From: Chitinophagales bacterium
GTDB lineage: Bacteria > Bacteroidota > Bacteroidia > Chitinophagales > CAIODY01
Direction of reading: 5' to 3'
Assembly (NCBI GenBank): GCA_947449695.1
Contig: CANFST010000017.1
Span: 1 to 53,044, forward strand
Length of the DNA: 53,044 nucleotides
This document shows, piece after piece, positions 9,173-12,423 of the stretch; position 1 is the first letter of the stretch, and the number at the start of each line of letters is the position of its first letter. The notes beneath the pieces were generated by a model. It did not search any database. It was not told the DNA's origin and saw only the letters and a program-made list of their open reading frames with translations. The position numbers were made by a program, and so were the translations under genes.

Positions 9173-10309
9173 TTATTCTTTCACAAACTTGGCTGTATGC
9201 ACAAAACCTTTTTCATCGGTGGTTTTGAGGATGTAAATGCCTGAAGGCAAGTTAGCAGTAGTCAGTTGGCAGTTATCAGTAGTAAGATGGTTCGACAAGC
9301 TCACCATGACCTGACCTAAAACATTTTCTATTTCTACTTTTGTATTGCCCGAAAACTGAATACCGCTTACTGTTAACTGATTAGTTGCTGGGTTGGGATA
9401 AATAACAAAACCTATTTCTTTTTTAATTCCTTCCACACCACTTGCACTATCTAAATCTATCAAGCTCACATCATCAAAAAAATATACTGATGCCATTTGA
9501 TGAGGACATAAGCTATCAACCAGTTGAACTTGAAAATGACCATCAGATTTAAAGTTACCTAATATAACATATTTTTCACCCCCTCCTTCACATTGAAAAG
9601 TATCGGTTAGGTTCACCCAATGTGCTGTGTCAGCTACTAATTGATTGATTTGAACCTGAGGAGTATAATGGGTAATATTTGGAAATACCTGATTGGTTCT
9701 AATTAGGGTATCACTAAATAAAGCACTAAAACTATTAATTGCAACTATTTTACCTATATCCGTACTACTCCAAAATATAGTATCCATCAAATGCACCCAT
9801 ACACTAAAAACATAATGATGTCCGTTAACCATTGGTTTTATCAATCTGCCTTCCAATAACTCTCTATAATTATACCCCCCCCCACTAAAAGTATTATAGG
9901 GGCCATACAGGGCTAAATTTACGCAACATGAATCTGAATGTGGATAAATGTTTTTGGCAATGCCTCTGCAACCTTCGGGCAGATGAAAAGAAAAATTATT
10001 TATTTTTGTTGAACCACCTTGAATACCTGTGGTAGAGACAGAGTTCCAATATTTCAGACCACAAAATCCGCTCGGCATATTCAAGCCTGTATCTATTTCA
10101 AAAGTTGAAATATTAAAAGGAATACAATTACCCCAATGCTCTTCAAAGCCAGGATTCAGAATCAAATTTTGAGCAGTACTATTTTTTAAAAAGAACAACG
10201 ATAAAATTAAAATACCTATAACCCTGCTGGTGCAAGTCTGACGCAAAGCCTTTGAGCGTTGCCGACTTGTGCCTTGTTTGCTTTCAAAATAGGTTGTATT
10301 TATTTTCAT
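9173..10309 (-). CDS. T9SS cargo protein with repeat insertions at both ends
   Basis: Secreted protein of 378 residues. The middle (about 50-290) begins NLILNPGFEEHWGNCIP and ends VYFFDDVSLI, a layout typical of carbohydrate-binding-like or PEP-CTERM-like beta-sandwich domains in Bacteroidota surface proteins; no catalytic motif is seen. The last 80 residues are a type A sorting domain (VIYPNPATNQLTV ... LPSGIYILKTTDEKGFVHTAKFVKE). Two oddities: residues about 9-29 before the hydrophobic signal core (VIGILILSLFF) are encoded by a hairpin repeat (10223-10273), and SNHLTTDNCQLTTAN in the sorting domain is encoded by other repeats (9252-9310). The ATG overlaps the stop of a cargo-gene relic upstream (TAATG). 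Confidence 0.8.
   Translation of the reverse strand: MKINTTYFESKQGTSRQRSKALRQTCTSRVIGILILSLFFLKNSTAQNLILNPGFEEHWGNCIPFNISTFEIDTGLNMPSGFCGLKYWNSVSTTGIQGGSTKINNFSFHLPEGCRGIAKNIYPHSDSCCVNLALYGPYNTFSGGGYNYRELLEGRLIKPMVNGHHYVFSVWVHLMDTIFWSSTDIGKIVAINSFSALFSDTLIRTNQVFPNITHYTPQVQINQLVADTAHWVNLTDTFQCEGGGEKYVILGNFKSDGHFQVQLVDSLCPHQMASVYFFDDVSLIDLDSASGVEGIKKEIGFVIYPNPATNQLTVSGIQFSGNTKVEIENVLGQVMVSLSNHLTTDNCQLTTANLPSGIYILKTTDEKGFVHTAKFVKE
9252..9310. repeat. two short dispersed-type repeats inside a T9SS sorting domain
   Basis: 9252-9283 is a degenerate tandem run built from CAGTAGT/CAGTTGGCAGTTATCAGTAGT-like words, a type common between genes in Bacteroidota. 9289-9310 begins GGTTCGACAAGC and ends CTCACCATGAC, another repeat that I recognise from many Bacteroidota genomes, where its translation gives MVSLSNH. 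Here both are read in frame. Confidence 0.6.
10223..10273. repeat. hairpin repeat, family A, copy 1
   Basis: Imperfect hairpin: GGTGCAAGTC at 10229-10238 pairs with GACTTGTGCC at 10264-10273 (8 of 10 Watson-Crick, the other two G-T wobbles). The loop side carries CAAAGCCTTTG. It aligns along about 46 bp with copy 2 at 10696-10740. It encodes the extra N-terminal residues of the T9SS cargo protein. Confidence 0.65.
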
Positions 10310-10368
10310 TATTCTTTCACAAACTTAGCATTTTTTACATTGTCTTTTTCATCGGTGGCTTTGCAGCC

Positions 10369-10394
10369 GTTGTCGGAGTTTGTCCTCCGACAAC
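10369..10394. repeat. palindromic repeat, family B, stem variant 1
   Basis: Perfect 10-bp stem (GTTGTCGGAG at 10369-10378 with CTCCGACAAC at 10385-10394) and a 6-nt loop that reads GACAAA on the minus strand. Same loop core (ACAAA) as the palindrome 11 bp to its right, with a different stem. Confidence 0.75.
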
Positions 10395-10404
10395 TTCCTT
10401 TGAA

Positions 10405-10428
10405 TCGTTGGTGAACAAACACCAACGA
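10405..10428. repeat. palindromic repeat, family B, stem variant 2, intergenic copy
   Basis: Perfect 9-bp stem (TCGTTGGTG with CACCAACGA) around the loop AACAAA. The central 20 bp are identical to a copy inside the CMP-sugar synthetase gene at 26967-26990. Confidence 0.8.
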
Positions 10429-10538
10429 TGGCTGAATTTATTAAAACAATTGATTGCTACTAATCAAGGTCTTACTAATTCATAGGAGGAGAAGCAGTGA
10501 AAAAGCTATTTTTTCTCCAATTTTTTTATTTTTTGCAT

Positions 10539-10685
10539 CTACGAAATGTTTTTTCGCAAGTGCGAAAGTTTTCTTAGTGGGTGCGAAACATTTTTCCGCA
10601 GGTGCGAAACTTTTGTTCGGGGGTGCGAAACTTTTCTTCGCAGGTGCGAACAAGTTGTCCGTAGGTGCGAAAACTGCTCTTTTAC
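10539..10685. repeat. seven-unit tandem array with exact 21-bp period
   Basis: The word GTGCGAAA (or a close variant) starts at 10539, 10560, 10581, 10602, 10623, 10644 and 10665, exactly 21 bp apart; the bases between are variable but keep TTTTCTTCGCAG-like text, so each unit can fold on itself (TTTCGCA/TGCGAAA at 10552-10567). Because the period is a multiple of three, several frames are open: the minus frame reads FAPAKKS-like heptads, the plus frames AGAKLFF- and RRCETFL-like heptads. I do not call a gene here, since no frame has convincing start signals or partners, although the minus frame (10480-10767, 95 codons) is possible. Confidence 0.8.
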
Positions 10686-10695
10686 CCATAAAAAT

Positions 10696-10740
10696 CCAGC
10701 TCGTCCACGTCTGCCGCCAAGCCTTTGCGTTGCGGACGAG
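10696..10740. repeat. hairpin repeat, family A, copy 2
   Basis: CTCGTCC at 10700-10706 pairs with GGACGAG at 10734-10740; the shared core AAGCCTTTGCGTTGC lies between. It aligns with copy 1 (10223-10273), but the outer stem has changed on both sides while pairing is kept. Confidence 0.65.
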
Positions 10741-10831
10741 GATGCAGAGGCTTTTTGTTTCTAACAAATTTATAGTTTTTCATTCTTCTGGTCGGTATTT
10801 ATTTTCGTCATAGATGAAATTCCACTTGTAT

Positions 10832-10869
10832 CCTCGTTTCCTACGCTCATATCGCTGCTACAAACGAGG
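10832..10869. repeat. hairpin repeat, family C
   Basis: CCTCGTTT (10832-10839) pairs perfectly with AAACGAGG (10862-10869) around a 22-nt loop containing CTACGCTCATATCGCTGCTA. Only one copy is visible here. The flanking 10870-11029 shows no gene and no further structure that I can support. Confidence 0.55.
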
Positions 10870-11029
10870 CCGAGCTGGTAAATACGCTGTTAAAGTTCAA
10901 ACAATGAAATCTGCACCAGCAGAATGGAGTGTTGGGTTTTATTCTTAATTAAAAGACCTTTATTTTTAAAAAATTGCCTTTAAACTATTAAAATTTGATT
11001 GTTTGTGTGTTATGAAAACTGGTGGATTA

Positions 11030-11067
11030 AAAAAGGAGCGATAGCAAATGCTATCGCTCCTTTTTTT
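11030..11067. terminator. strong hairpin terminator
   Basis: Perfect 16-bp stem (11030-11045 with 11050-11065), tetraloop AAAT, A-run on the left and T-run on the right. It closes the repeat-rich region and stands downstream of the dihydroorotase-like gene, whose 3' end is at 11158. Confidence 0.9.
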
Positions 11068-11157
11068 CCTTTTTTTAAATATAGGTGGTTAAACCCCAGT
11101 TCCTCATAGTATAAAGCATAGCTTTGTATTTAGCTGACGAGTTAGTGAAACCCCGAA

Positions 11158-12423
11158 TTAAAATTTTTCAAATTCCGAATTATTCATCGTGCCTAAAATT
11201 TTCCCTTTCAGCTTCATACCTATCAAAGGTGAATTTTTTGATTTTGATAAAATGTTTTTTTCTTCTAATACAAATTCGGCTTCAGGATTGAATAAAGTAA
11301 AATTGGCGTTATTATTTTCGGTTAAGGTCGGAATTGTTAAATTGAGTATTTTTCTTGGGTTGATGCTTAGTAATTGTATCATGGCATCTAAATTTATTTC
11401 GGCATGCATGGCTGTATTTAAAGCGGCGAAACAGGTTTGCAAATTGATAGCACCAAACAAAGCATGATCAAACTCAACTTGTTTTTCTTCCGTGTCTTTG
11501 GGTTGATGCCAACTGCAAACCACATCAAACACATTTTCTTTCAAAGCATTTTTCAAAAACTGAATATCAGTTTTGGTGCGTAAGGGTGGCATCAATTTAA
11601 AATGTGTATCAAAATCTTCCAGCATCGAATCATCGAGCAACAAATAAATAGGGCTGATGCCAGCGGTTGCTTTTATTTTTTTTGCCTTGGCACTTTTTAA
11701 TAAATCAACTGATTGCTGGGTAGTAAGATTGAAGAAATGAATTTTCGAATTGGTATATTCACATAAAAACAAATCGCGTTGAACCATAGCAGTTTCAGCA
11801 ATTTGCGGAATGCCAAACATACCCAGTTGTACTGCCGATTCGCTTTCGTTCATCACACCATGTTCGCTCAGCTTTTCATCATTGGGTTGTTGTAATATCA
11901 AGCCATCAAATGGCAATACATAGCGCAAGGCTCGGAGCAATACGCCTGAATGCTGCAAAGCATTTAAACCATCTGTAAAGCCCACAGCGCCGCTTTGATG
12001 CATATCTTGCAGTTCAGCCAGTGTTTCACCTTTGGCTTTGGGCGAAATAGCACCCATTGGAAATACAGCAACTAATTTGTTTTTGTTTTGTTGTAAAATG
12101 TATTCAATTGCTGATTTATTATCAGCTATAGGATTATTGTTGGGCAACACTGCCACGCCTGTAAAACCACCTGCTGATGCAGCTTTGGTAGCAGTTGCTA
12201 AATCTTCTCGGAATTCAAAGCCAGGGTCGCAGGTGTGTGTGCCGATATCAAAAAAACCAGGTGCTATATGCAAGTTATCTGCTTCGAATACTTCAACATT
12301 TTTCACCGAAATTTTATCTTCTACTTTTTTTATAATTCCATTTTCAATTAAAATATCTTTAGTTTGATTATTGTATTTTGAAGTGGGGTCGATGACTACA
12401 GCTTGTTTGATAAGCAGATTCAT
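11158..12423 (-). CDS. dihydroorotase-like protein with degenerate active site (PyrC' type)
   Basis: A 421-residue amidohydrolase-fold protein aligned end to end with class I dihydroorotases, but the metal site is largely missing. The first-strand HxH is G61-T-H63 (DIGTHTCDPGF); the later His of the fHiST motif is replaced (HFFNLTTQQS); the PHHL segment is PIYL; and the catalytic Asp of TDHAP is lost (CSWHQP). It therefore resembles the non-catalytic PyrC' subunits known to support aspartate transcarbamoylase in some bacteria. A complete dihydroorotase is encoded 24 kb away (35032-36411). Role inferred, not shown; no pyrB is nearby. Confidence 0.8.
   Translation of the reverse strand: MNLLIKQAVVIDPTSKYNNQTKDILIENGIIKKVEDKISVKNVEVFEADNLHIAPGFFDIGTHTCDPGFEFREDLATATKAASAGGFTGVAVLPNNNPIADNKSAIEYILQQNKNKLVAVFPMGAISPKAKGETLAELQDMHQSGAVGFTDGLNALQHSGVLLRALRYVLPFDGLILQQPNDEKLSEHGVMNESESAVQLGMFGIPQIAETAMVQRDLFLCEYTNSKIHFFNLTTQQSVDLLKSAKAKKIKATAGISPIYLLLDDSMLEDFDTHFKLMPPLRTKTDIQFLKNALKENVFDVVCSWHQPKDTEEKQVEFDHALFGAINLQTCFAALNTAMHAEINLDAMIQLLSINPRKILNLTIPTLTENNNANFTLFNPEAEFVLEEKNILSKSKNSPLIGMKLKGKILGTMNNSEFEKF

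Follow-up and report, generated by a model that had tools for sequence, protein, structure and literature searches.

Two adjacent hairpins in the DNA of a Chitinophagales bacterium raise the question of what they form together and what could have spread them. The stretch of DNA analysed (the window, 53,044 nucleotides) is contig C17 of a 3.14-Mb draft genome in 99 contigs (G000). Relatives of its genes point to a Bacteroidota, and for one gene of the window the nearest named matches belong to an uncultured bacterium (90%) and a Chitinophagales bacterium (66%). The hairpins had been recorded in a first-pass annotation made from the letters of the window, which also listed a third palindrome at 26967-26990 and proposed, from covariation of the stems, a relation to REP elements and RAYT proteins or else an RNA structure. 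Palindromes by themselves were at chance level, with three stems of at least 10 bp in the window compared to zero to three in 12 shuffles.

Anatomy of the element and its copies

Both adjacent palindromes were real. They were, however, the halves of a single 69-base element and not separate structures, being united by flanking AGCC and GGCT that were absent from the first-pass annotation. From left to right the element reads AGCC GTTGTCGGAG TTTGTC CTCCGACAAC TTCCTTTGA ATCGTTGGTG AACAAA CACCAACGAT GGCT, i.e., tag, 10-bp hairpin, 9-base spacer, 10-bp hairpin and inverted tag (Table 1). Each half follows the order AGCC-stem-TTTGTY-stem' when read from its outer end inward, and the element is therefore one 30-base unit present twice in inverted orientation. 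In both hairpins 10 perfect pairs close a six-base loop. For the first this agrees with what had been recorded, and the second was correctly placed but had been given as 9 bp at 10405-10428. The two hairpins are inverted, and the ACAAA loop described as shared by the pair appears in the first only on its minus strand. The description of the stems as unrelated and different at almost every pair was wrong. Read in the same direction, the stem of unit A (GTTGTCGGAG) and that of unit B (ATCGTTGGTG) are identical at six of 10 pairs and differ at four, and judged from this identity the two stems are homologous. Folded as single-stranded DNA (ssDNA), the 69 bases gave a predicted energy of -21.5 kcal/mol compared to a shuffle mean of -7.45 (z -7.36). 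In the predicted fold AGCC pairs with GGCT and closes a three-way junction, both tags being paired with each other.

Table 1. Positions in the window of the 69-base element, its parts and the single unit located in a coding gene.
Feature	Position	Strand	Evidence or remark
Whole REPIN-like element, 69 bp	10365..10433	.	sequence, covariance model, ssDNA fold
REP unit A: tag AGCC 10365-10368, hairpin 10369-10394	10365..10394	+	single-unit model, E 8.2e-10
Unit A hairpin: GTTGTCGGAG / loop TTTGTC / CTCCGACAAC	10369-10394	+	
Inter-unit spacer, 9 nt	10395..10403	.	intact copies elsewhere have 8 or 9 nt
REP unit B, inverted: hairpin 10404-10429, tag AGCC 10430-10433	10404..10433	-	single-unit model, E 4.1e-10
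Unit B hairpin: ATCGTTGGTG / loop TTTGTT / CACCAACGAT on the minus strand	10404-10429	-	
Single REP unit in ORF 26389-27120 (minus), in frame	26966..26995	-	single-unit model, E 1.6e-9; alignments with relatives

A genome search for the second palindrome with up to three mismatches gave 23 places (14 forward, 9 reverse), compared to none for a backwards control. Two covariance models were built, one of the whole element and one of the single unit, the latter without any RAYT locus. The whole-element model gave 57 matches in G000 at E ≤ 10, many places appearing once per strand owing to the near-palindromic form of the element. The single-unit model detected 45 units genome-wide at E ≤ 0.01, whereas the first-pass annotation had named a count of two or three as speaking against its proposal. 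By reading of the match rows, 26 of these 45 units were grouped into 13 inverted pairs with AGCC outward. At the same threshold, the congeners G001 and G002 had 22 and 2 units, respectively. Of the genomes from the same family, G003 had 5 and G004 and G005 had none. A 400-kb sample of G000 (20 stretches) gave no match at E ≤ 0.1. Several copies were identical across 69 bp and many were halves or decayed.

Most of the 20 element loci checked lay outside long gene-like ORFs, with one unit within a neuA-like gene. The 45 thirty-base units agree in size and dispersal with the definition of REPs as mainly intergenic palindromes of 20-40 bp, and the 13 pairs, with spacers of 8-9 nt and tags pointing outward, agree with that of a REPIN as two inverted REPs with a short spacer. 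Their number is lower than the REP copy number of usually >100 given in PMC2817692. An 81-base match was not found in a phage collection, and a phage origin was rejected. Neither G001 nor G002 yielded a site orthologous to that of the window element. To the left of the element lies the tail of a repeated gene-end sequence, and the sequence to its right is present at G001:C38 with no element beside it, which places the element at a junction of two repeats and not in a clean target.

The third palindrome was also present, as a single unit in a gene whose product, named from its sequence pattern, we take to be acylneuraminate-cytidylyltransferase-like (neuA-like, a sugar-nucleotide enzyme). The protein reads KFCE-ALVGVCSP-TITLSTDS where the closest relative (91%) reads KFAE-KYNG-TLTLSTDS. 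The whole insert occurred in none of 11 relatives, with three of them having residues in one or two of the four columns that it adds. Compared to the DNA of relatives, about 12 bases were replaced and 12 gained (net +12 nt) with the reading frame preserved. These alignments show that a single unit entered a coding gene, though not through clean cut-and-paste.

Paired change in the stems

Stem variation was analysed in an alignment of 42 units (41 distinct) from G000, G001, G002, G003, G113 and G130, with rows L072, L073 and L075 derived from G003, G130 and G113, respectively. The alignment drew on 42 distinct halves minus 10 out-of-register ones, supplemented by 10 single units. Within this alignment, which is biased towards pairing by the use of a structure model to gather the units and by the omission of the out-of-register halves, and whose sequences are related, 85.9% of cells were paired and 8 of the 10 stem pairs had changed on both sides. 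Two-sided change was present in 62 cells compared to a shuffle mean of 23.8 and to 13 or fewer in slid controls, and the covariation first noticed between the hairpins of the window was borne out on this larger set. The count of pairs with two-sided change, one of five measures, was 8 compared to a shuffle mean of 5.7 and was reached by 30 of 500 shuffles. Most of the 42 aligned rows carried AGCC or a near variant as the foot tag. Natural stem variants included GTTGTCGGAG, GTTGTCGGTG, ATCGTTGGTG and TTTGTCGGTG, with GAAGTCGGTG in the sister genus, and variants of this kind reveal the parts that an enzyme must read.

RAYT genes and the hairpins that flank them

A search of G000 with Pfam PF01797 detected only a gene on C28 and missed a gene on C11, and the Pfam Y1 search of G001 detected one gene (C134), flanked by other repeats. 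Neither the C28 gene nor the C134 gene was retained as the cognate enzyme, the flanks of both being occupied by other palindromes. At L024 1080-1360 and 1995-2290 (G000:C28), AAGTTCGTCGAACTT palindromes spaced by about 55 nt form REPIN-like pairs that flank the C28 RAYT. These make up a third REP family, related pieces of which adjoin the element at C87.

Over 396 genomes of the order, the single-unit model gave a match at E ≤ 1e-5 in 13. Two units flanked a Y1 gene in G108 and a second such gene was found in G113, the two proteins being reciprocal best matches (49.6%). A search with the alignment of these two proteins detected relatives at E ≤ 1e-14 in 169 of the 396 genomes. The RAYT of this clade in G000 was found by the clade alignment search at G000:C11:40376-40876 (E 1.3e-49). 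The C11 protein had no match in Pfam and matched the NCBIfam REP-associated tyrosine transposase family NF047646 (E 4.4e-21) with 75.3 bits at a cut-off of 80 bits. Six clade proteins were compared to this family, and one scored above the cut-off and five just below it. The clade proteins retain the N-H-x-H and Tyr motifs. Set beside the motifs NH[LIV]H, WQ and YIH[QN]NP of RAYT subclass 2.6 (group 5), the C11-type proteins of G000 and G001 have NHIH, FWQ and Y[MI]HQNP, and other members of the clade have NHYH or WE. Among solved structures, no transposase was found among the sequence relatives of the C11 RAYT at E ≤ 1. No RAYT relics besides the C11 and C28 genes were found in about 594 kb of G000 sequence (overlaps included).

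Of more than 150 clade matches, 49 distinct loci were studied, consisting of the best 30 and 19 hand-picked among the next, own family included. The single-unit model gave 81 matches in the 160.9 kb of these loci, compared to 1 match at 33 other Y1 loci (101 kb). Within 300 bp of the clade RAYT genes, 49 matches pointed outward compared to 17 inward. An outward unit was present within this distance at 27 of the 49 loci and on both sides at 16, with 22 loci having none. In an independent scan for three-base foot tags, GCC came first among the outward tags, at 27 of 49 loci and on both sides at 13, and faced inward at 10 loci. The runners-up, CCG (20) and CGT (14), are read as the same hairpins shifted by one and two bases. 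Typical flanking units have the form GCC-GTTGTTGGTG-loop-CACCAACAAC, with loops TTAT, TTTCT, TTCTT, TCCC or GCCT and various stems. The closest match was detected in another family at G113:C12, where a RAYT gene broken by one TAA stop is flanked by GCC-GTGGTCGGTG-TTTGAC-CACCGACCAC units. The right end of this locus, GCTTCA-[hairpin]-GGC-spacer-CACCAAC-RAGGGC (AGGGC at C12), is closely matched by G000 copies at C63, C10 and C7 and by another G113 copy (L075). At another locus of G113 (L285, G113:C26), the RAYT frame is broken after residue 131 by what appears to be a short palindromic insert from a further repeat.

The C11 RAYT and its counterparts in G001 and G002 are flanked by GCC-GAGGTTCGTG-TCCC-CACGAACCTC, and the single-unit model gave no match at these three genus loci (L318-L320). 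A RAYT flanked by the same palindromes, which the first-pass annotation had suggested looking for, was present in sister families. In the 99-contig draft of G000 no RAYT flanked by AGCC-TTTGTY palindromes was found, the flanks of C11 and C28 carrying other hairpins. With the enzyme clade present in this genome and the matching member not seen, the REPINs look orphaned. At L072 (G003:C47) and L047 (G000:C47), GCC-GGTTCGTG hairpins of the C11 RAYT family adjoin or overlap ACAAA-type units, and these are nested or hybrid REPs.

Origin of the element, known systems and neighbouring repeats

Copy number, covariation and the RAYT flanks in sister families support the relation to REP elements and RAYT proteins that had been proposed. 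With its anatomy, copy number and covariation demonstrated, together with the association between the model and the RAYT clade in sister families, the element is best read as a REPIN, i.e., a non-autonomous ssDNA element with an AGCC (GCC) tag, a perfect 10-bp stem and a TTTGTY loop. We consider it probable that it belongs to a Bacteroidota RAYT clade whose REPs are tagged with GCC rather than GTAG. Counting against this are the RAYT genes of G000 with their other flanking hairpins, the 22 clade loci with no outward unit within 300 bp, a tag that is neither GTAG nor CGTC, a copy number that is low for a REP family and the lack of a clean empty site, the coding insertion having also replaced about 12 nt. 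The five clade proteins just below the NF047646 cut-off and the lean of the alignment towards pairing count against it as well.

By analogy with work on RAYT/TnpA-REP and IS200/IS605, each unit would fold when its strand is single-stranded, e.g., during lagging-strand synthesis. A RAYT (an HUH-tyrosine transposase) would recognise the tag, the loop and the integrity of the stem but not its sequence, and would presumably cut close to the hairpin and paste the ssDNA elsewhere. An enzyme reading these features would explain why tag and loop remain fixed and why drift in the stems is mostly compensated by the partner base. TnpA-REP enzymes bind the single-stranded REP using foot tag and loop to varying degrees, with an unbroken stem required in some systems and stem swaps tolerated in others (PMC8266576), and such behaviour fits a constant tag and loop with drifting yet paired stems. 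The founding RAYT of the family has probably been lost from G000, which would leave an ageing population of intact, half and decayed copies, and the many half and decayed copies are as expected for a population without its enzyme. Copies in all three states across two congeners, the sister genus and other families make RAYT loss and REPIN decay traceable.

It is possible, but in our judgement unlikely, that the REPIN is still active and that the resident C11 RAYT acts on it in trans via the GCC tag, tolerating other stems and loops. The C11 gene is an open frame of the right clade in the same genome, and its own REPs resemble unit B in the GCC tag, in the stem length of 10 bp and at six of the 10 stem positions. 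Activity would also suit the copies that are identical over their whole length and the stem-sequence tolerance of some TnpA-REP enzymes (PMC8266576). The loops differ, however (TCCC at C11 compared to TTTGTY), the C11 flanks lack a match to the single-unit model, and each tnpA-REP has its own specific REP family (PMC6006769).

Spread only via segmental duplication or template switching between repeats, without a transposase, is doubtful. The copies on C19, C20 and C88 do have 71-73 bp of flank in common, and the replacement of about 12 nt at the coding copy is one that template switching could produce, but the flanks of other copies are unrelated right up to AGCC and GGCT, and in other families units flank RAYT genes.

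The RNA structure offered as an alternative by the first-pass annotation, i.e., an attenuator, terminator or leader with a regulatory role, gained nothing beyond the pairing itself, a helix maintained by compensating changes. No Rfam family reached its gathering score over 10000-11200, the hairpins are not directly followed by a T-run, and copies occur in both orientations and in mixed contexts, also inside a coding gene. A regulatory RNA would in addition leave the mobile dispersal unexplained, and we regard this origin as very unlikely.

A short, non-coding sequence with inverted ends and many copies could also be a MITE moved by a DDE transposase, with AGCC.../...GGCT as its terminal inverted repeats. 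Each end is, however, a complete hairpin and lone single units occur, the flanks read by eye show no constant target duplication, and at the loci read we noticed no larger element that combines these ends with a DDE gene. The association with RAYT genes is moreover specific, and a MITE appears highly improbable. A repeated peptide-coding segment (SHRWCLFTNDS..VVGGQTPTTA open in one frame) has next to nothing to recommend it, as some open frames do run across the element but the spacers of 8 or 9 nt in intact copies break the frame and copies lie in differing frames or none. Integron attC sites were also considered and set aside; no cassettes were noticed and the foot does not appear to fit the core-site consensus.

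Read as a REPIN, the element resembles the REPINs of Proteobacteria and their RAYT/TnpA-REP systems (GTAG/GTGG tags) in its short hairpin, unpaired foot tag, inverted pairs and mainly intergenic dispersal, and in the HUH-tyrosine (Y1) genes flanked by such units. It differs in its (A)GCC tag in place of GT[AG]G, in having tens of copies and in that no cognate enzyme was found. The GTAG and CGTC REP families were set up in PMC3733652, and an element with AGCC, carrying neither a GT[AG]G nor a CGTC tag, is not filed under either superfamily. RAYT subclass 2.6 (group 5) of Bacteroidetes agrees in phylum and, broadly, in the motifs N-H-x-H, F/I-W-[QE] and Y-x-H-x-N-P, and its members have 'atypical secondary structures' without GT[AG]G at their flanks, with copies elsewhere in the genome (PMC6006769). 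The main text of that paper states no tag or sequence and describes weaker structure, whereas the units described here have perfect 10-bp stems and a GCC foot. The GCC foot tag, perfect 10-bp stem and clade-specific loops provide a searchable rule for these 'atypical' flanks of Bacteroidota RAYTs. Within the part of the literature searched (main texts), GCC-tagged REPs were nowhere mentioned.

The CGTC-tagged REPs and Rickettsia palindromic elements (PMC3733652) are similar in being tagged inverted hairpin dimers, some of them inside genes, with no dedicated transposase found adjoining. Their tag and loop are different, and here relatives hold a transposase clade with matching hairpins. An in-frame coding insertion of the Rickettsia type was matched in one case, that of the neuA-like gene, but the CGTC tag of that family was not. 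The BrickBuilt MITE of Porphyromonas gingivalis (PMC4596501) is likewise an intergenic mobile-type Bacteroidota repeat with short tandem units. Its 23-nt unit is internal, whereas the period-21 arrays described here have unrelated units and adjoin the REPINs.

One such array, degenerate and in tandem, lies at 10525-10680, 92 bases from the element, and was the only one found in the window. Among the other element rows of G000, 9 of 19 had a period-21 array, amounting to 8 distinct arrays, as did 2 of 11 rows of relatives; the arrays lie up to 974 bp from the elements. The array-bearing rows and RAYT loci were L029, L034, L037, L035, L031, L025, L028, L044, L063, L062, L318 and L319, and a row from G113 had an array of period 15. 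A single array, again of period 21, turned up in the 400-kb sample of G000, which had no element at E ≤ 0.1. Period-21 arrays also accompany the C11 RAYT and its counterpart in G001. Each array has its own unit, by eye often a short palindrome. GCC-tagged REPs, their RAYT and the arrays could conceivably form one system in which the ssDNA-handling enzyme that spreads the REPs also seeds or expands arrays of 21-base palindromic units, each with its own sequence, although we think this quite unlikely. In such a system hairpin shape, tag and spacing would be inherited while the letters were free to change.

Further repeats surround the element in the window. A second repeat family, GGTGCAAGTC...GACTTGTGCC with loop CAACGCTCAAAGGC (minus), is located at 10222-10275 in the start of ORF 9173-10309. 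Its stem varies between copies (L010) with a constant loop, and it also flanks the G001:C134 Y1 gene on both sides. The sequence at 10309-10363 resembles the final codons for the C-terminal domain of a secreted protein (KATDEKDNVKNAKFVKE, minus), truncated by the REPIN, and element-free versions occur at many places in G000-G002. Another repeat, with CCTCGTTTCCTACGCTCATATCGCTGCTACAAACGAGG, lies at 10690-10882 and recurs at C4 and C87, where it has the same position relative to the element. Finally, a 17-bp perfect hairpin ending in T's at 11029-11066, with weak sub-threshold Rfam matches, is likely an intrinsic terminator.
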